Source of the DNA: Candidatus Deferrimicrobiaceae bacterium
GTDB taxonomy: Bacteria > Desulfobacterota > Deferrimicrobia > Deferrimicrobiales > Deferrimicrobiaceae
Length of the DNA stretch: 64,000 bases
Reading direction: 5' to 3'
Assembly: GCA_036504035.1 (NCBI GenBank)
Contig: DASXVV010000012.1
Location: forward strand, 62,001-126,000
The position numbers were made by a program, and so were the translations under genes. Below the pieces are notes generated by a model. It saw only the letters and a program-made list of their open reading frames with translations, was not told the origin of the DNA and made no database searches. Shown one piece after another: positions 33,675 through 43,143 of the stretch; position 1 is the first letter of the stretch; each line of letters starts with the position of its first letter.

Positions 33675-34013
33675 ATGGGAAGAGCTGCGGTTTTGTTTGC
33701 TAGTCTGTTGCTTGCATTCACCTGGACGCCCGGTTCGGCTCTGGCCGGGGGGATTCCCGCCAAGGTCATTTCCTCCGAGCCCGAAAAGCTGGTTGTCCGA
33801 TTCGAAAACGGAGAAGGGTCTGCGTTCCCCGCAGGAATGCGCGACGTCGAGATCCGCTCCGGCGGGGTCGTCGTGGTTCGCGGACGGGTGATGACCTCGA
33901 GCCCGGAAGAAGCGACGTTCGCGATCATCAGGGGGAAGGCGACCGGCCTTCCCGCCGGGACCGCCGTCGAGGTGGAGCAGGCGACGGCCGCGGAGGGGAT
34001 CGACGGATGCTAG
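33675..34013 (+). CDS. Small exported protein, first gene of the cytochrome cluster
   Basis: 112 residues: signal peptide about 1-24 (AVLFASLLLAFTWTPGSALA), then a compact, beta-rich ~85-residue domain (KVISSEPEKLVVRFENGEG ... EIRSGGVVVVRGRVMT) ending DGC with a lone cysteine. No CXXCH. Family not recognised. ATG 33675 has GGGAGGG 7 bases upstream. It precedes the pentaheme cytochromes by 41 bases, so a periplasmic role connected to them is likely but unproven. Confidence 0.65.
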   Translation: MGRAAVLFASLLLAFTWTPGSALAGGIPAKVISSEPEKLVVRFENGEGSAFPAGMRDVEIRSGGVVVVRGRVMTSSPEEATFAIIRGKATGLPAGTAVEVEQATAAEGIDGC

Positions 34014-34054
34014 CCGACAGGATTCGAAAAGAACACGACGAGGAGCATGGCGCC

Positions 34055-35389
34055 ATGACGCGAAGGATCGTCCTTATCTCCCTGATTGCCTTCGGGCTCA
34101 TCGGCTGGTCGCCCGCGCATGCCGAAAAGGCGGGCATCGGGTGGAACGAGGGCATCGCGGCGAAGAAGGGCAAGGCACGGACGATCGCCGAGCTGGCCGC
34201 GATGTACGACTCGGCCCCCTGCGCCGAGTGCCACAAGGAAATCTACGACCAGTGGCGGAAGTCGTCGCACTTCTCCGCCATCTTCGGTTCGGGGCGCACG
34301 GCTGACGGCTTCTGGGCCTACATCCAGGACGGCCTGATGAAGTGGCGCTATTCCGGCGTCAAGGGAACGGGCGACGTCCGGATCGAGCACCTGATGGAAT
34401 GCGCCAAGTGCCACCTCCCCCAATTGGCCGAAGCCGAGGACTCCGTGGCGCAGGAGATCGTGTCCGCGCTTTCCGAACGGCAAGGCGCGCTCGACCGGAA
34501 GGACCAGGCGGCGGCCGACAAGGCGTCCGACACGCTCAAGTCGCTGAACGTCGGCTGCACGATCTGCCACAACCGGAACGCGCTTATCCACAAGTGGGCC
34601 GACGGGTACGCCAAGGCGAACGAGATCTACGGCACCAAGGACGGGGTGCACCCCGGCAAGGAATTCACGGTATTGAAGAAGAGCCCGATCATGGGAGAGT
34701 CGATCCTGTGCGGCCAGTGCCACGGGCTCGGCCCCAACCTCGACCTGGCCAACCCCAACCAGTGCACGACGCTCTACGGCAGCTATATCTACGCTTACCG
34801 GTCGCACGGGGGCAAGGAAACCTGCCAAGACTGCCACATGCGGAAGAACAAGATCGGGCACGAGACCAAGCCGCTGTCCGATCCCGAAATGATCAAGCAG
34901 ACGCTCGACGTGACGACGCAGACGCACGGCTTCTTCTGGCGCGACGGCCGTCAGGACGTCCCGCGGGTCGTCGTCGACGTGAGCATGACCAACCGGACGG
35001 GGCATTCCCTCCCCGACAGCATCTCCTCCAACCACCGGCTCGTGCTGACCGTGACGGCGAAGAACAGCGACGGCGACCAGCTCTTCTCCCAGCGCAAGAT
35101 CTACATGCAGGTCCCGCAGCGCTTCGGCCGGGGCGGCAAGATGGGACGCGCGGCCTTCGAGAAGACCGGCATCCTCGAGGACACCGCCCTGCCTCCAAAC
35201 GACCAGATCCGCGAGAAATTCGACTTCACGCTCGACGCGGATACCGGCGGCAGGGGGAAGGGCGCCAAGCTCCTGTCCGAGCTCGAGGTGCATGTGACGC
35301 TTCGGCAGTTGAGCGCCGATGACTCGCCCGATACCGGCGGCATCCTGCTCTACGAGACGAACCGGGACGTGACCATCGAGGAGCGGTAG
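34055..35389 (+). CDS. Pentaheme c-type cytochrome, cytochrome c554-like
   Basis: 444 residues, signal peptide 1-23 (ISLIAFGLIGWSPAHA). Five CXXCH motifs at residues 56, 116, 168, 219 and 257. The first lies in CAECHKEIYDQWRKSSH, the cytochrome c554 signature. After the haem domain a ~180-residue haem-free beta-rich C-terminal part begins (VSMTNRTGHSLPDSISSNHR). Periplasmic electron carrier or reductase subunit; substrate unknown. ATG 34055 has GAGGAG about 9 bases upstream. The next gene is a close paralogue, 4 bases away. Confidence 0.88.
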   Translation: MTRRIVLISLIAFGLIGWSPAHAEKAGIGWNEGIAAKKGKARTIAELAAMYDSAPCAECHKEIYDQWRKSSHFSAIFGSGRTADGFWAYIQDGLMKWRYSGVKGTGDVRIEHLMECAKCHLPQLAEAEDSVAQEIVSALSERQGALDRKDQAAADKASDTLKSLNVGCTICHNRNALIHKWADGYAKANEIYGTKDGVHPGKEFTVLKKSPIMGESILCGQCHGLGPNLDLANPNQCTTLYGSYIYAYRSHGGKETCQDCHMRKNKIGHETKPLSDPEMIKQTLDVTTQTHGFFWRDGRQDVPRVVVDVSMTNRTGHSLPDSISSNHRLVLTVTAKNSDGDQLFSQRKIYMQVPQRFGRGGKMGRAAFEKTGILEDTALPPNDQIREKFDFTLDADTGGRGKGAKLLSELEVHVTLRQLSADDSPDTGGILLYETNRDVTIEER

Positions 35390-35393
35390 CCCC

Positions 35394-36761
35394 ATGTCTT
35401 TGTCGGGACGCATCGCAAAGCTGGCGCTTCTCGCCGGCCTCGTTCTGCTCCTCCTGCCTGCGCCGGGCAGGCCGGAGCCGGCCGGGATCGGGTGGGACAA
35501 CACGCTCGTTGCCCGGAAGGGGAAGGCGAAGACCATCGCCGAGCTTTCGGCGATGTACGACTCGCGCCATTGCGAGGACTGCCACGCGAAGGTCTACCAC
35601 GCGTGGGACCGGTCGGCCCACTCCGAGCCGATCCTCGGGAAAAGGCGGGTCGGGCGCAAGGCGCTGGCGATCATGACGATCTTCGACATCGCGCGGGAGG
35701 AGTGGCCCTACACCAAGCTCGAGAGCCCCGCTGATGTCAAGGTCGAGCACCTCATGGGCTGCGCGAAATGCCACCTTCCCCAGCTCGCCGATGCCGAGGA
35801 CAGCGTCGCGCGGGAGCTCGTCGGCGATATCATCGCCTGGCGGGACGCCAACAAGCGCAAGGACGAGCGGAAGGCGAAGGCCATCGAGGGCAAACTTTCC
35901 CAGTTGTCCGTCAACTGCCTCATCTGCCATAACCGGAACGCCATCGTCCACAAGTGGACCGACGGGTATGCGCCTGCCCGGGCCATCTACGGGGCGGCGG
36001 CCGACAAGCCGCACCCCGCGGGGAAATTTCCCTACATCAAGCAGAGCCCGATCCAGGACGATTCGCTCCAGTGCGGGCAGTGCCACGGGCTCGGGCCGCA
36101 ACTCGAGCGCGACAACCCGACCCAGTGCCCCACGGTCTACGGCTCCTACCTCTTCGACTACAAGGCCCGGGGGGGCGACGAGAGCTGCCAGGATTGCCAC
36201 ATGCGGCGCTCCGAACTCGGGCACGACATCTCGAGCTACCGGAATCCCGTCATGATCAAGGCTGCGCTTGATTTCGCCGTCGACGCCACGCCGATGCTCA
36301 TGGTCGAGGACCAGAAGGCCGAGGCCGGGACCGGCGGAAAGCTTACCCCGAAGATCCGGGTCTCGGTGCGGATGACCAACAGGGCCGGGCACCCCATTCC
36401 CGATGGCTGTCCGACCACGACGCGGCTGATCCTCGACGTCACGGCGAAGACGCCCGACGGCAAGGAATTCTTCTTCAGCGAAAAGAGCTACATGCCGATC
36501 CCCCAGAACTATGCGCGGGGCGACAAGATGGGAAGGGGCCCCTTCCAGAAGGCGGCCATGATCATCGATACGGCGTTGCCCCCGCTCCGGCAGGTGGCCG
36601 AGAGCTACGAGATTCTCGTTCCCGGGGATGGGCGGCGCGAGATCGAGGTCGAGGCGAAGCTCGTCTATCTTCCCTTCGGCTCCACGAAAGCGGTCGACGA
36701 TCCGGTCGTGTGGCGCGACGTCATCCGCAAGGTGATGGTGGAAGGGCGGGATCCGGACTGA
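35394..36761 (+). CDS. Pentaheme c-type cytochrome, paralogue of the preceding gene
   Basis: 455 residues, signal peptide about 1-25. CXXCH at residues 60, 123, 175, 227 and 265, with nearly the same spacing as in the upstream gene, and shared text such as AGIGW, KTIAELSAMYDS, CAKCHLPQLADAEDSVA, CGQCHGLGP and CQDCHMR. The C-terminal half again has MTNRAGHPIPDG and a beta-rich domain. A tandem duplication with clear divergence between the copies, suggesting different partners or potentials. Its stop shares a base with the next start (TGATG). Confidence 0.88.
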   Translation: MSLSGRIAKLALLAGLVLLLLPAPGRPEPAGIGWDNTLVARKGKAKTIAELSAMYDSRHCEDCHAKVYHAWDRSAHSEPILGKRRVGRKALAIMTIFDIAREEWPYTKLESPADVKVEHLMGCAKCHLPQLADAEDSVARELVGDIIAWRDANKRKDERKAKAIEGKLSQLSVNCLICHNRNAIVHKWTDGYAPARAIYGAAADKPHPAGKFPYIKQSPIQDDSLQCGQCHGLGPQLERDNPTQCPTVYGSYLFDYKARGGDESCQDCHMRRSELGHDISSYRNPVMIKAALDFAVDATPMLMVEDQKAEAGTGGKLTPKIRVSVRMTNRAGHPIPDGCPTTTRLILDVTAKTPDGKEFFFSEKSYMPIPQNYARGDKMGRGPFQKAAMIIDTALPPLRQVAESYEILVPGDGRREIEVEAKLVYLPFGSTKAVDDPVVWRDVIRKVMVEGRDPD

Positions 36762-37090
36762 TGAAACGCTCCTTCCAATCCCCGCTGGCGTGTGCCCTCC
36801 TGTCCGTTGCGCTTCTCCTGGGCGGCGTCCGGACGGTTTCCGCCCTCGAGGATCAGAAGATCGTCGGGGTCGTCGTCCGTTTCGATATCGCGTCCGACGG
36901 GAAATCGGTCGAGGCCACCGTCAAGGATCTCCGGAAAGACAAGGAGATCAAGCTGCACGTCACGAACGAACTGGTCATCGACAAGTTCCGGTATGGCAAG
37001 CTCGCCGCGGGTGCGGAAATCCGGGCGAAGTACGAGTTCAGGGACGGCAAGAACTACTGCAGTTATTTCCGGAAAGTCAGCGGCGAATAG
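36761..37090 (+). CDS. Small exported protein of the cytochrome cluster
   Basis: 109 residues. Signal peptide about 1-28 (ACALLSVALLLGGVRTVSA), then an ~80-residue basic, beta-rich domain (DQKIVGVVVRFDIASDGKSVEATVKDLRKD ... AGAEIRAKYEFRDGK) that could be an OB-like fold. One late Cys, no haem motif. Family not recognised. It overlaps the pentaheme gene and precedes the chemoreceptor, so it may act as a periplasmic partner of either. Confidence 0.65.
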   Translation: MKRSFQSPLACALLSVALLLGGVRTVSALEDQKIVGVVVRFDIASDGKSVEATVKDLRKDKEIKLHVTNELVIDKFRYGKLAAGAEIRAKYEFRDGKNYCSYFRKVSGE

Positions 37091-37111
37091 CGGCCGATGC
37101 GGGGATAAACC

Positions 37112-38716
37112 ATGGCAAGCAGCAAATACTGGAACCGGCTGGCGGCACGACAGATGGCGGCGTTCGCCCTCCTGATCCTGGGCGTTACCGTCTTCCTGTC
37201 CTGGGCGGCCTACGACCTTGCCCGCAAGACGCTGGTCGAGTCGATCCGGGAGCGGGGACGGGGGCTGCTCACCGCGTTCGAAGGCGATGCGGCGGACCGG
37301 TTCGCCGAAGGAGACAAGGCCTACTTCTCGAAGTACCTCCAGGATCTCGCCTGGCGCGACCCTTCGGTGTCCTACGCGGCCGTCATCGACGCCAAAGACA
37401 CCGTGATCGCCCACAGCGAACAGGAGCTCGACGGGAAGAAGTGGACCCCGCCCCCGGGCAAGGGGACGGGGACCATGAAGATCATCGAGCGGACGGTTCC
37501 CTGGAAGAAAGGCGTCGTCCTCGAGTTCACCGTTCCCGTCGAAGAAGAAGGGAAGAAACTCGGCACGCTTCAGCTCGGCATCAACTACACGCGGGAGACG
37601 GCAAGCCTCGCGAACCTTGCCCGCAAGATCGCGCTGGCCGGACTGGTGATGCTCCTGGTGGCGCTGCTGGTCGCCTACAAAATGTCGCAGCGGATCAGCG
37701 CCGGCTTGTCGCGCCTGTCTGCGTCGGCCCGTCAGATCGCCGCCGGGGATCTCGACGTCCAGGTACCCGAGGACGACGGGAAGATCGAGGAGATCCGGGA
37801 GCTGGCCCATGCGTTCAACGCCATGACCGGCGGCCTGCGCGGGATCCTCGACCGGATCGGCCAGAGCAGCGACCGCCTCGGGTCGTTCGGCGAGAAAGTC
37901 GCCGGGGTCATTCGGGACCAGGCGCAGAACACGACGACCCAGGCCTCCTCGGTTTCCGAGATCACGGCCACGATGGAAGAGCTGTCGCGGACCTCGCACC
38001 AGATCGCCCGGAACGCCGGCGACGTCCAGAAGACCGCGGCCGACTCGGTCGACGTCGCCCGCAAAGGGACGCAGCTCGGGAAGGCGGGCGTATCGGCCAC
38101 CGACAGCCTCCGTAACAAGATCCTGAATATCTCCGAGAAGACGTCGTTGCTCAACGAGAAGTCCGTCGAGATCGGGAAAGTTGTGACGATCATCCGGGAG
38201 ATCGCGGGCGAGATCCACCTGCTGGCGCTGAACGCCGCGATCGAGTCGGCGGCGGCGGGCGAGAACGGGCGCCGCTTCGCAGTCGTCGCTTCCGAGGTCC
38301 GGCGGCTGGCCGAGAAGACGCGGGAATCGACCGAGACGATCCGCTCGATCGTGTCCGAAATCCAGTCGGCGGCCCGCGATTCCTCGCGGGTCACGGGCGA
38401 GGGAACCGTCGAGATGGAATCCTGGCAGCAGCTGGTGCAGGAGATCTCCTCCGCCTTCGAGGAGATCATCCACCGGATCGAGACCACATCCGAGGCCAGC
38501 GCCCAGATCTCGATGGCCACGAACCAGCAGACCAGCGCGAACGAGCAGGTGGTGCTGTCGATGCGCCACGTGGCCGAGATCGCGCAATCCTCGGTCCGGG
38601 GGATGAACGGGTTGTCGGATGCGACAGGCGAGCTGTCACAGTTGATCGGGGGGCTGTGCCAGGAAGCCGCCGCCTTCCGGAAACGGGCCGATCAAACTGC
38701 GCAGGCGGAGGCCTGA
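37112..38716 (+). CDS. Methyl-accepting chemotaxis protein embedded in the cytochrome cluster
   Basis: 534 residues: first membrane helix about 14-34, a periplasmic sensor of ~135 residues resembling a single Cache fold (SYAAVIDAKDTVIAHS), second helix about 172-190, HAMP (MSQRISAGLSRLSASARQIAAGDLDVQVP), then a long coiled-coil signalling domain with tip IAGEIHLLALNAAIESAAAGEN...RRFAVVASEVRRLAEKT near 366-402. No cytochrome motif and no C-terminal pentapeptide tether. It lies between cytochrome genes, 21 bases after the small exported gene and sharing its stop with the next start, so it is probably cotranscribed with the electron transfer genes. Confidence 0.93.
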   Translation: MASSKYWNRLAARQMAAFALLILGVTVFLSWAAYDLARKTLVESIRERGRGLLTAFEGDAADRFAEGDKAYFSKYLQDLAWRDPSVSYAAVIDAKDTVIAHSEQELDGKKWTPPPGKGTGTMKIIERTVPWKKGVVLEFTVPVEEEGKKLGTLQLGINYTRETASLANLARKIALAGLVMLLVALLVAYKMSQRISAGLSRLSASARQIAAGDLDVQVPEDDGKIEEIRELAHAFNAMTGGLRGILDRIGQSSDRLGSFGEKVAGVIRDQAQNTTTQASSVSEITATMEELSRTSHQIARNAGDVQKTAADSVDVARKGTQLGKAGVSATDSLRNKILNISEKTSLLNEKSVEIGKVVTIIREIAGEIHLLALNAAIESAAAGENGRRFAVVASEVRRLAEKTRESTETIRSIVSEIQSAARDSSRVTGEGTVEMESWQQLVQEISSAFEEIIHRIETTSEASAQISMATNQQTSANEQVVLSMRHVAEIAQSSVRGMNGLSDATGELSQLIGGLCQEAAAFRKRADQTAQAEA

Positions 38717-39963
38717 TGGCCGGGATCTCAAGGGAGTCGATCCGGATGAAACTGGGCAAGGGCCTGGCGTCGCTGTTGCTCGTCCTGCTCGTCGCCGCGC
38801 CCGCGGCCGCCGAGGGCCCCGTCCTGAGCGGGCGATCCTCCACGCAGATCATGGCGTTCTCGGACGAGTCCGGCAAGGACCGGGTTCTGGCCCAGCAATA
38901 CCTGCGCGCGCTCGTGCGGGGGCTCGACAACGACGGAACGCTCACCGTGAGCGGATACGGGAGACTGTCGGGCGACATCCGGAACGGCGAAGCGTTCGAG
39001 GGGCGGCTCTACTACCTCTATCTCGACAAGCGGGAGATGCTTCCGGCCACCGACGTGCGGGTCGGGCGCCAGTTTTTCTGGAACGCCGCAGGCTCCGCGA
39101 TCGTCGACGGGGGGCGTGTCGACGTCCACCCGTACCGCCTGATGACGCTGACCGCGGTCGGGGGGCGCCACGTCGTGTTCGACCTGACCGGCGAGGAGAC
39201 GCGCCGGGGCGACTACGCGGGCGCGCTACAGCTCAGCTTCGACTCTATTCCCGACGGGTCGGCTGCGATTTCCTGGTACAGGGCCACCGACGAAAGCGAC
39301 CTGGCCCGCGACGCGGTCGGGTTCGAGGGCGCCAAGCAGCTCGGCAAGAACGCCGAGGTCTTTACCCAGCTTCGCGCCGACCTCGTCACCGAGACCTTCA
39401 CCGAAGTCGATGCGGGCATCCGGACCACGCCGCTGCCCAACCTGACGGTCGGCGCCGAGTTCCTGCGCACCGTCCCCGAATTCGACACCACCTCGATCTA
39501 CGCGACGATGGCCGTCGAGAAGTACGACTACGCCTCGCTGACGAGCCAGTACGACTGGAACTCGAACCTTTCCTTCACGGCCGAGTTCCGCCGCGAGAAA
39601 TACGGCGACGGCGGGACCGGCAACGGCGCCGAATTGGGCGTTCGCTACAAGCCGTTCGACGGTTCGCTGGGCTCCGTCTTCGGCGGGATGATCTGGCGGA
39701 CCGGCGCGGGCGGAGACCTGCTGGGATTCGAGCTGTCCGGCGAATACGCCTGGTCCCCGACCCTGCTGCTCGTCGGCGGCATCCAGCAGGACGCCTTCCA
39801 GACCGACATGATGACCGGCTCTCGCCACGCCACCCGGTTCTGGGGCGGGGTCGAGTCGAAGCTGCGGAAGAACCTGTCCCTCTCGGCACGGGTCGAGGAC
39901 ACGATCTCGACCGACGCGAGCAAGGATCTTCGGGCGCGGCTGACGCTGAACGCCAACTTCTAG
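38716..39963 (+). CDS. Outer-membrane beta-barrel, candidate porin of a cytochrome conduit
   Basis: 415 residues. Signal peptide with hydrophobic core LASLLLVLLVAAPAAA, alternating strands with many Tyr/Phe/Trp at strand ends (YYLYLDKREM, VAVEKYDYASL), and a C-terminal Phe (LTLNANF). There are no cysteines. ATG 38716 has GGAGG 4 bases upstream; ATG 38746 is an alternative. Flanked by the chemoreceptor and the nonaheme cytochrome, it is the best candidate for the barrel that houses electron transfer across the outer membrane. At 415 residues it is much smaller than MtrB. Confidence 0.75.
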   Translation: MAGISRESIRMKLGKGLASLLLVLLVAAPAAAEGPVLSGRSSTQIMAFSDESGKDRVLAQQYLRALVRGLDNDGTLTVSGYGRLSGDIRNGEAFEGRLYYLYLDKREMLPATDVRVGRQFFWNAAGSAIVDGGRVDVHPYRLMTLTAVGGRHVVFDLTGEETRRGDYAGALQLSFDSIPDGSAAISWYRATDESDLARDAVGFEGAKQLGKNAEVFTQLRADLVTETFTEVDAGIRTTPLPNLTVGAEFLRTVPEFDTTSIYATMAVEKYDYASLTSQYDWNSNLSFTAEFRREKYGDGGTGNGAELGVRYKPFDGSLGSVFGGMIWRTGAGGDLLGFELSGEYAWSPTLLLVGGIQQDAFQTDMMTGSRHATRFWGGVESKLRKNLSLSARVEDTISTDASKDLRARLTLNANF

Positions 39964-39976
39964 GAGGAGAGGGCAC

Positions 39977-40762
39977 GTGAAGAAAATCATCCCCATGCTC
40001 CTCGTCGTCCTGGCCGCGATCGGCGCGAAGCCGCTGTACGCGCTCGTGAACCACGCCGACTACAAGGACATGAAGCTCAACGAATGCAACGAGTGCCACC
40101 GCGACTCCGGCGTGGTCCCCAACCATCAGGCGGGCTGGAACGCCGACCATCGGCGGGTCGCGGTCAAGCCCGATTCCGGGACCAACTGCGCGCACTGCCA
40201 CGCCCAGGCGTTCTGCTCCGATTGCCACTTCGGCGGCGGGGTCAACGCGACGCTGCAAACGCCCACGACCCGGGACGGCCGCGATTACATGCCCCGCTCC
40301 CACCGCTCCGACTTCCGGGAGACGCACCCCATCCAGGCGGCCGAAAAGCCGGCCTCCTGCACAAGATGCCATCCGGTTTCCTATTGCACCGACTGCCATC
40401 GGCAATACCAGCCCGCCGACCTTGCGTTCCAGTCCCACCGGAAAGGATTCTCAGACCTGCAGACCTCCGCCGTGGGCCCGAAGCACGCGACCTTCCCGGA
40501 CAGCTCATGCCGGTCGTGCCATCCCAATTCGCTCCTGTCCACCCACCGCTGGACTTCGTCGCATCGCCAGGAGGCCCGCCGGAACCTGGCGGCATGCCAG
40601 GCCTGCCACCCCGACGGCGACGTCTGCATGAAATGCCACAGCGCCCGGTCGGGCCTCCGGGTCAAGATCCACCCCGGCAACTGGGGCTCGATCAAGGGCA
40701 AGCTCCAGCGGGCATCGGGGCAGCGCTCCTGTCTCAAGTGCCACGACGTCATCCCGTGGTAG
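39977..40762 (+). CDS. Nonaheme c-type cytochrome, likely periplasmic
   Basis: 261 residues, signal peptide about 1-22 (IIPMLLVVLAAIGAKPLYA). Nine CXXCH motifs at 37, 71, 80, 128, 137, 178, 207, 217 and 252, one haem per ~27 residues, with closely paired motifs (71/80, 128/137, 207/217) typical of linear electron wires. No lipobox, so periplasmic or inside a barrel. It follows the barrel by 13 bases and precedes the decaheme lipoprotein by 44, the barrel/periplasmic/outer-surface order of porin-cytochrome conduits. Confidence 0.9.
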   Translation: MKKIIPMLLVVLAAIGAKPLYALVNHADYKDMKLNECNECHRDSGVVPNHQAGWNADHRRVAVKPDSGTNCAHCHAQAFCSDCHFGGGVNATLQTPTTRDGRDYMPRSHRSDFRETHPIQAAEKPASCTRCHPVSYCTDCHRQYQPADLAFQSHRKGFSDLQTSAVGPKHATFPDSSCRSCHPNSLLSTHRWTSSHRQEARRNLAACQACHPDGDVCMKCHSARSGLRVKIHPGNWGSIKGKLQRASGQRSCLKCHDVIPW

Positions 40763-40806
40763 CCCATTCGTTTCGAGTTTCGCAGCCCGAAAGGAGATTC
40801 ATCCGA

Positions 40807-43143
40807 ATGAAACGGCACTCTGCGCTCTTCCTTGTCGCATCGCTCGCCGCATCGCTTCTCCTTGCGGGCTGTTGGGGATCGGACCGGACGATCGGCGCGA
40901 CCGCGCCCGTAGCGGCGCCCGCGGCCACCGGGAATCTCAATGCCGCGATCACGTCCGTTTCCATCCCGGCCGACGGGAAGCCGGTGGTGACCTTCTCTCT
41001 CTACGACGAGAACGGCGCCGCGCTCGACCCGGCCGTGCTCCTGGCAAGCAGCGGGGGATCGCTCCGTTTCCAGATCGCCAGGATCAAGGCCGACGGCTAC
41101 TACGAGAACTACATCAAGAATGCCAGCGGGCTCCCGAGCTACGACGTGGCGATTCCGTCCGCGTCGCAGTTCGCCGCGCTCGGCGGCGGCGTCTATACCT
41201 ACAAGTTCGCCAACGCGATCGACAACGCGTCCCAGACGCTCGGCGGCATCGTGCTCGCGGGCAACGAGGCGCTCACGCACACCGTGGCCTTCACCGCTGC
41301 CCGCAATGTCCTCACGTCGACGGGCAAGACGTTCCAGCAGGCGGTCAACCCGTACCTGCACTTCCGCCCAGACGGCGGCGCCGTAACCACATCGCGCGAG
41401 ATCGTCGCCGTCTCCAACTGCAACGGATGCCACGGGAAGCTGGCTCCGCACGGAGGCACCCGGCGGGACGTCGCCCTGTGCGTCATGTGCCACTATGCCG
41501 GCGTCCGCGACATCAAGGGCGCGGCCGCGACCGGCAACTCGATCAACCTGCGCGACCTCGTCCACAAGATCCACTATGGCGTCAACCTGCCGAGCAACAA
41601 GGCAGGGGGCAAGTTCGTGATTGGCGGCGACAGCTTTGCCGACGTCAAGTTCCCGCTCAATTCGGGCGACCCTCTGGTCACCAACACCCCGATCAAGTGC
41701 ATCAAGTGCCACAAGGCGGGAACCGACGCTGCGGGGCGGCCGTTCGGCCGTGATGCCAGCCGCTACAAGGCCAATCCGACGCCCGCCAAGTGCATGTCCT
41801 GCCATGACACGATGATCTTCGACAGCGCGAACGCGTCGGTCGTGGTGAAGGGCGGCGCCGCCGGCCAGGACAACGTCACGGTGCCCGATACCAACCCCAA
41901 CATTGTCAAGCACTACAATTACGCGCAGCGCAACCTCGACGTCACGGGAGCGCAGGCCGACAACACGGCCGTGTGCAGCACATGCCACGTCCAGACGGCG
42001 CTCGCGGGCACCGAGTACAAGCTCGGCGACATCCAGGGCGTCCACACGCTCGTCGAGGAGTCGAGCTTCAACTTCACCGTCCACTTCCAGATTCTGGCCG
42101 TCGACAACGTCGACGCCGTCAACCGGTCGCCGAGGGTCACCTTCAAGGTCGCCTACGACAACGGCGCCGCCATCGCGCCCTCGACCGTCGCCAACGTCAC
42201 GAACCTGACGCTCAAGCTCGGCTACATCCCGGCAGGCGCCATCGACTTCTCGAACGACTTGATGTTCAACGGGGGGGTGACGCCGACGAAGCCCGGCGAG
42301 GCGATGTCGCTGGCGATCACCGGGTCCACGACGGCGGTCGACAATCTCGTCGACAACGGCAACGGGACGTACACCGCCCGCTTCTCCAGCATCGGGAGCG
42401 TTCTGCCCGCGGCTGCCTCTGCCGGCGTCGGCATCGTCACCCTCGAAGGGCGCGTGGGATTGCCCGGCACGATCACGACGCCCCGCAAGACGCTCAGCAA
42501 TGCCAACACCCGCTTCTCGGGCCCGGCGGCGCAATGGTATTTCGATCTTGCCACCGGGACGCACGTCACCGACTCGGCCCGGATGCGGCGCCAGGTGGTC
42601 GATACGAACAAGTGCCGCAACTGCCACGGGATCCTGCGCGGGCATAGCGGCAGCCGCTACAACGTCGAGGAATGCGTCGTCTGCCACAACCCCAACCTGT
42701 CCGACAACGTGGACGTGCCCACGTATCCGGAATATCCCGCCGTCTTGCGGTACATGATCATGCGGATCCACCGGGGGACGCTCGCCACGCAACCGTACAT
42801 GGTCGGGCCGGGGCGGAGCAGCGTCCGATTCCCGGGCGACACGCGCAATTGCCTCCTCTGCCATGTCGATTCGCTGCCCCTCACGTTCGGCGTTCCGCTG
42901 AAGGCGGGCATGCTCCCCGTGACCGTCTCCCGGGGGGCGATCCAGAACGACAGCGCCGACGACACCAAGATCGGCCCCATCCGGGCGTCCTGCGTCCCGT
43001 GCCACGACAGCCCGACGTTCCCGCTGCCCCACATCCTGCTGCAGACCACGGGGAGCGCCTCCAACCCGACCGAACTGTGCGCCAACTGCCACAGCACCGG
43101 GCTGCTGCTGGGGCCCGACTTCGCGCACGAGGCGGTCAAGTAG
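40807..43143 (+). CDS. Decaheme OmcA/MtrC-like outer-surface lipoprotein cytochrome
   Basis: 778 residues. Lipobox LLLAGC puts the lipidated cysteine at residue 22. Ten CXXCH in two groups of five: 205, 225, 298, 329, 390 and 603, 623, 682, 729, 758. Beta-rich haem-free domains (about 45-190 and 415-590) precede each group, the split-barrel/pentahaem alternation of OmcA/MtrC proteins. Expected to reduce extracellular acceptors such as Fe(III) oxides at the outer face. ATG 40807 with AAAGGAG about 10 bases upstream. Last gene of the cluster before two hairpins. Confidence 0.93.
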   Translation: MKRHSALFLVASLAASLLLAGCWGSDRTIGATAPVAAPAATGNLNAAITSVSIPADGKPVVTFSLYDENGAALDPAVLLASSGGSLRFQIARIKADGYYENYIKNASGLPSYDVAIPSASQFAALGGGVYTYKFANAIDNASQTLGGIVLAGNEALTHTVAFTAARNVLTSTGKTFQQAVNPYLHFRPDGGAVTTSREIVAVSNCNGCHGKLAPHGGTRRDVALCVMCHYAGVRDIKGAAATGNSINLRDLVHKIHYGVNLPSNKAGGKFVIGGDSFADVKFPLNSGDPLVTNTPIKCIKCHKAGTDAAGRPFGRDASRYKANPTPAKCMSCHDTMIFDSANASVVVKGGAAGQDNVTVPDTNPNIVKHYNYAQRNLDVTGAQADNTAVCSTCHVQTALAGTEYKLGDIQGVHTLVEESSFNFTVHFQILAVDNVDAVNRSPRVTFKVAYDNGAAIAPSTVANVTNLTLKLGYIPAGAIDFSNDLMFNGGVTPTKPGEAMSLAITGSTTAVDNLVDNGNGTYTARFSSIGSVLPAAASAGVGIVTLEGRVGLPGTITTPRKTLSNANTRFSGPAAQWYFDLATGTHVTDSARMRRQVVDTNKCRNCHGILRGHSGSRYNVEECVVCHNPNLSDNVDVPTYPEYPAVLRYMIMRIHRGTLATQPYMVGPGRSSVRFPGDTRNCLLCHVDSLPLTFGVPLKAGMLPVTVSRGAIQNDSADDTKIGPIRASCVPCHDSPTFPLPHILLQTTGSASNPTELCANCHSTGLLLGPDFAHEAVK

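Follow-up and report, generated by a model that had tools for sequence, protein, structure and literature searches.

The window analysed here, 64,000 nucleotides of contig C12 from a Candidatus Deferrimicrobiaceae genome (G000), contains a chemoreceptor gene inside a cluster encoding an electron conduit, which raises the question of what this receptor senses and which signalling pathway it serves. The matter bears on how metal- and electrode-respiring bacteria sense solid electron acceptors, and a receptor co-encoded with one conduit makes the link of conduit expression to attachment signalling addressable through a single gene. The original prediction was that the receptor may detect this pathway's redox partner or terminal acceptor and thereby couple motility to extracellular electron transfer. 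We instead favour, at a probability of roughly 0.55, an orphan 40H single-Cache receptor that is co-encoded with the conduit and feeds a Wsp-like pathway tuning c-di-GMP.

The receptor gene and its conduit cluster

The receptor is encoded by a complete open reading frame on the forward strand (37112–38716, 534 a.a), with the layout of a transmembrane helix, a single-Cache sensor, a second transmembrane helix, a HAMP domain, and a methyl-accepting chemotaxis protein (MCP) signalling domain. Matches to the Pfam models sCache_3_2 (E = 1.3e-9; 38.7 bits vs. a cut-off of 28.4), HAMP (E = 8e-10), and MCPsignal (E = 9e-31) all lie over the curated cut-offs. The signalling domain with its hairpin tip, the HAMP domain, and the membrane anchor place the protein among the MCPs, and the periplasmic PAS-like domain flanked by two transmembrane helices places it among the single-Cache receptors, which bears out the prediction of a full MCP with a small Cache-like periplasmic sensor. 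Together with the heptad class, tip signature, sensor model, and fold search given below, these matches underlie our annotation of the gene as an orphan class 40H chemoreceptor with a single-Cache periplasmic sensor.

Eight co-directional genes, all on the forward strand, make up the cluster: a small exported ExtJ-like protein (sp1, 33675–34013), two ExtKL-type five-heme cytochromes (KL1, 34055–35389; KL2, 35394–36761), a second small exported ExtJ-like protein (sp2, 36761–37090), the receptor, the outer-membrane beta-barrel of the conduit (38746–39963), a periplasmic multiheme cytochrome (39977–40762; nine CXXCH motifs by count, with a Mtrc-MtrF_II-IV_dom match), and a decaheme outer-membrane cytochrome of the OmcA/MtrC family (40807–43143; TIGR03507, E = 3.3e-108; 10 CXXCH). 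KL1 and KL2 match NF040886 (E = 3.4e-148 and 1e-147, respectively) and carry five CXXCH motifs each; these are the pentaheme genes between which and the barrel the receptor had correctly been placed, with sp2 also preceding it. The assignment of sp1 is weak (ExtJ model, E = 0.026 only), and in sister clusters 51–54% identical orthologues immediately precede KL1. For sp2, homologues (43–58%) lie beside ExtKL and a receptor in three related genomes (G001, G002, and G004), one of them matching the ExtJ model (E = 8e-4), while the barrel shows a weak OMP_b-brl match and has a 75% identical counterpart directly after KL2 in G001. By ORF reading, the cluster is preceded by ribosomal protein L19-like, RNase HII-like, and YraN-like genes and followed by a phosphofructokinase-like gene in the opposite direction.

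Spacing within the cluster is tight: the KL2 stop and sp2 start overlap at 36761, 21 nt separate sp2 from the receptor gene, and 29 nt lie between the receptor stop and the likely barrel start. The receptor had been thought to share its stop with the next start, and a TGATG (38714–38718) does overlap the stop with one in-frame ATG; however, the barrel more likely starts at 38746, given a GGGAG Shine-Dalgarno sequence, a signal peptide beginning there, and an upstream string (GGGAGTCGATCCG, then ATGAA) common to this start and the barrel start of a sister species. A weak scan found no promoter- or terminator-like sites inside 34000–43100. The receptor gene thus belongs to a single co-directional cluster with the conduit genes and, judging from gene spacing, is probably co-transcribed with them.

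The conduit is a hybrid Ext/MtrC-type trans-outer-membrane electron conduit. It shares ExtKL multiheme proteins (here in two copies) and ExtJ-like small proteins with the extHIJKLMNOPQS cluster of Geobacteraceae but lacks an ExtH/ExtI-like gene, and has instead an OmcA/MtrC decaheme cytochrome, a different barrel, and an internal receptor (PMC5877670). The ExtH rhodanese and ExtI porin absent from beside ExtKL in the window cluster do occur in another ext cluster of G000, its second (C9:313–319k). The ExtKL genes at G000:C9:313216–314505, G001:C158, and G004:C237 each contain a single in-frame TGA, consistent with the selenoprotein form of the protein; the two copies in the window have none. 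The sp2-type ExtJ-like protein was also considered as a partner of the receptor and rejected, since in other genera such a gene lies between a barrel and a 7-CXXCH cytochrome with no MCP, and thus associates with cytochromes rather than receptors.

Receptor class and the Wsp-like pathway

From the end of HAMP across the tip to residue 518 of the window receptor, the signalling domain spans 275 residues in this protein and in the receptors of a Wsp-like che cluster, compared to 247 in eight other receptors of G000 and ~233 in two; the 28 residues separating 275 from 247 equal four heptads. Against Tsr of E. coli (1qu7, class 36H), 250 window residues align to 222 (+28). The receptor therefore belongs to class 40H, four heptads longer than the 36H class that forms the majority in G000. 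Its tip reads EIHLLALNAAIESAAAGENGRRFAVVASEVRRLAEKTRESTE; over the 42 residues around the tip it agrees with the Wsp-like cluster receptors of the genus except for an N/H difference and is clearly unlike the 36H set, and its signalling domain is 53–63% identical to the former and ~25–30% to other receptors. A second receptor of 40H length in G000 (C6:58k) lies within a different che cluster, so length alone does not fix the partner.

The Wsp-like cluster encodes CheW, MCPs, a CheA with a C-terminal receiver (CheA-REC), CheB, a REC-GGDEF protein, and CheR, in an order conserved in G001, G002, G004, and G008. In G000 it is split by contig ends: C4 closes with CheW and two MCPs, while C7 carries a C-terminal MCP part, CheA (Hpt-HATPase-CheW-REC), CheB, and REC-GGDEF. 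The two ends presumably join, as in G002 the MCP leads directly into CheA. The CheR gene was identified in the orthologues of this cluster in G001, G002, and G004. The assembly breaks at C4:93883, C12:1, C7:1, and C7:13934 fall within near-identical C-terminal halves of Wsp-like receptors, and paralogues of this genome thus share nearly the same signalling half behind different sensors. Close CheA-REC orthologues and the lineage of the window receptor occur in the same six of 24 family genomes (6/6 vs. 0/18; Fisher 7e-6, uncorrected for kinship).

Precedents for such an arrangement exist in Pseudomonas, where WspA (40H) and McpB (36H) form separate clusters (PMC2577667), and in Geobacter, where the 40H receptor EsnA is encoded away from its CheW and CheA and is needed for electrode growth (PMC5585712). 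Taken with the class and tip match and the co-occurrence, they point to the Wsp-like CheA-REC as the partner, which we consider a likely assignment, and to c-di-GMP as the output, for which the chance of its being the main one is about even. The receptor would join arrays of this separate pathway (CheW, CheA-REC, CheB, CheR, and REC-GGDEF; C4 end and C7), and with the conduit expressed and a periplasmic ligand present, c-di-GMP would be tuned, i.e., attachment or matrix. The coupling to motility originally proposed fares poorly here, as class and tip group the receptor with the CheA-REC/GGDEF pathway and not with the 36H majority.

The GGDEF domain carries GGEEF, an RxxD I-site, and, at the selectivity position, the Asp that we take to mark an enzyme making c-di-GMP as opposed to cGAMP (Hypr); a Hypr output was rejected on this residue. 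The REC-GGDEF proteins beside CheA-REC (L053 8562–10025; L268; L056; L269; L270) all keep an intact GGEEF site. Their receivers retain the phospho-acceptor Asp in G001 and G004 but have lost it in other species, with Asn at this position in G000 (LMNIR) and G002 and Ala in G008. It is therefore doubtful that CheA activates the protein canonically in G000, where either activation would be non-canonical or the kinase would act through CheB and its own receiver only.

The pathway shares with Pseudomonas Wsp (WspA-F/WspR) the 40H receptor class, the CheA-REC hybrid kinase, CheB, CheR, CheW, and the REC-GGDEF output, encoded in a cluster of the same genome or genus. In contrast to the one-operon arrangement of WspA, the window receptor is encoded outside the che cluster (on C12, as opposed to C4/C7), among the genes of a porin-cytochrome operon, and its sensor is of the sCache type; further differences are an extra middle region in the GGDEF protein and, in G000, a receiver lacking the Asp. 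The Esn network of Geobacter sulfurreducens (EsnA-D) likewise has a 40H receptor away from CheW/CheA and linked to a diguanylate cyclase and electrode growth, although EsnA has a cytoplasmic GAF domain, no periplasmic domain, and no place in a conduit cluster, and EsnD is not in the che cluster (PMC5585712). In the Geobacterales genomes compared (L258-L261), the best match of the window receptor (35–37% identity) belongs to a CheR-CheW-MCP-CheA-CheB-CheY cluster, which differs in having a CheA without REC, no GGDEF, and the receptor inside the che cluster.

Receptors at ExtKL loci

ExtKL occurs in only four of the 24 Deferrimicrobiaceae genomes surveyed (G000, G001, G002, and G004), in six clusters, and all six have an adjacent MCP on the ExtKL strand. 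The window cluster reads KL1-KL2-sp2-MCP-barrel-cytochrome-MtrC. Two others (G001:C34 and G002:C132) read sp2-MCP-sp1-KL1-KL2, followed in G001 by barrel-cytochrome-MtrC, while the G002 contig ends in KL2; the G001 barrel lies ~32 nt after KL2, so that no receptor stands at the position occupied in the window. In G000:C9:313–319k and G001:C158, an MCP heads a canonical ext cluster, which in the former comprises ExtH (rhodanese), ExtI (Porin_O_P), ExtJ, the TGA-containing ExtKL noted above, and cytochromes of 12 and 9 hemes. The sixth (G004:C237) has KL1-KL2, sp2 on the opposite strand, and an sCache MCP truncated where the contig ends. With this ExtJ-like gene (L110 1143–1487) inverted between ExtKL and the receptor in that genus, no simple transcript can cover both of them there.

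Among 79 ExtKL loci from named genomes (four in the family, 75 elsewhere), the 75 outside the family include no case of an MCP on the same strand within 5 kb, although receptors may have been undercounted since many of those contigs are short; seven of the loci have an MCP more than 5 kb off or on the other strand, which looks like ordinary MCP density. The expectation that chemoreceptors are rare inside such clusters consequently holds outside the family. Two publications describing porin-cytochrome clusters make no mention of chemoreceptors. As the six family clusters are related, they represent perhaps three or four independent events rather than six.

The foremost rival explanation, which we regard as unlikely but worth weighing, is that a scattered, mobile MCP gene landed in the operon with no functional tie to electron transfer, sensing an ordinary small ligand (e.g., a carboxylate) and feeding the Wsp-like array. 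The ratio of 6/6 in the family to 0/75 elsewhere argues against such chance placement, while in its favour the excess of MCPs near multiheme genes across G000 is only borderline (three of 15, against a background of 4.9% estimated from 360 kb of sampled stretches; P ~0.03) and carries no weight in our own argument. The window's genome also holds a third cytochrome cluster with a receptor (G000:C6:244–249k; L200 6081–11250), comprising a DUF3373 barrel, an ExtJ-like protein, a 7-CXXCH cytochrome related to octaheme TIGR04315, and a 36H four-helix-bundle MCP; in other genera, the barrel, ExtJ-like, and cytochrome trio occurs without an MCP.

The receptors at the ext site differ between species, as a mobile bystander gene would lead one to expect. 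Those of G001:C34, G002:C132, G000:C9:313–319k, and G001:C158 have four-helix-bundle sensors (three checked, G001:C158 by sensor identity) with 39–55% mutual identity and ~20% or less to most other receptors, and are of class 36H; single-Cache sensors occur instead in the window receptor, of class 40H, and in that of G004, which is too incomplete to class. Relatives thus do not simply keep the window receptor in place: its congeners G001 and G002 have the 36H four-helix-bundle type there, and its 76%-identical orthologue (G001:C181) sits outside the ext cluster of G001, again as a bystander might. Yet both lineages recur at ext clusters, and even G001:C181 lies 1.7 kb from an 8-heme cytochrome gene. 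In the sCache tree, the window, G001:C181, and G004:C237 receptors form a clade (SH-aLRT 97.8, UFBoot 97), with the first two joined at 100/100; support was taken from the tree in its unrooted form, since re-rooting displaces the labels. Homologues are mostly outside cytochrome loci across the wider lineage but not in this closest clade, of which two of three members lie beside ExtKL and sp2.

The simplest history is an sCache receptor already beside KL2-sp2 in the common ancestor, for which the G001/G002 line later substituted a four-helix-bundle receptor; a less simple possibility is two independent gains. A more speculative generalization, to which we attach little confidence, is that in this lineage the ext conduit operon offers a receptor slot, with one chemoreceptor per ExtKL cluster that varies from species to species in its sensor and output class through exchange. 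Such exchange (36H four-helix-bundle, or 40H single-Cache to CheA-REC/GGDEF) would tie the same conduit to different behaviours per species. Since a different pathway would receive the signal of the 36H receptors in sister clusters, the output proposed here would not be conserved across clusters, and the congeners offer a natural comparison of swimming and sessile outputs. A further pair of receptors, each ~10 kb away from an ext cluster of its genome (G000:C9:329k, L108 12656–14134; G001:C158, L061 312–1934), has sensors 57% and signalling domains 28% identical, one being 36H and the other 40H, which looks like an output-domain swap between chemosensory pathways.

The sensor domain and its ligand

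A search of PDB sequences using the sensor alone gave no match, and a fold search was therefore used. The AlphaFold model of residues 1–213 (mean pLDDT 76, from an alignment of only two sequences) shows a single-Cache/PAS-like domain between two long helices, in line with the predicted Cache fold, with the extracellular domain of WalK (Z 15.2, rmsd 2.5 over 133 residues) and the extracytoplasmic domain of CitA (Z 13.3, rmsd 3.0 over 123 residues) as best PDB matches. The presence of the carboxylate sensors CitA, DcuS, and DctB among the fold neighbours would suit a bystander receptor for an ordinary small ligand.

The sensor contains no Cys (none in residues 35–172) and one His, and lacks a CXXCH heme motif; by sequence, it is without heme c or an obvious redox centre, and direct redox sensing is therefore unlikely. 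Sensing of the redox partner, as first proposed, gains no direct support from this composition or from fold neighbours that are ordinary ligand-binding Cache domains. For the Wsp-like reading, the location of the gene suggests instead a metabolite or chelate tied to the acceptor, although that the receptor senses something linked to the acceptor of the conduit is a tentative proposal that we hold at less than even odds.

A role in flagellar energy taxis, in which the receptor would detect the redox partner or terminal acceptor and steer swimming as the original prediction had it, is improbable, and a Wsp-like c-di-GMP input appears favoured over it: although G000 has flhA and, by ORF reading, a che cluster beside a FliS-like gene, and the in-cluster receptors of sister ext clusters are of its majority 36H class, the window receptor itself is of class 40H and has a tip matching the CheA-REC pathway, and its sensor is unlike those of the heme-bearing Geobacter chemoreceptors GSU0582 and GSU0935, which carry the c-type heme motif CXXCH in the periplasmic sensor (PMC3460858).
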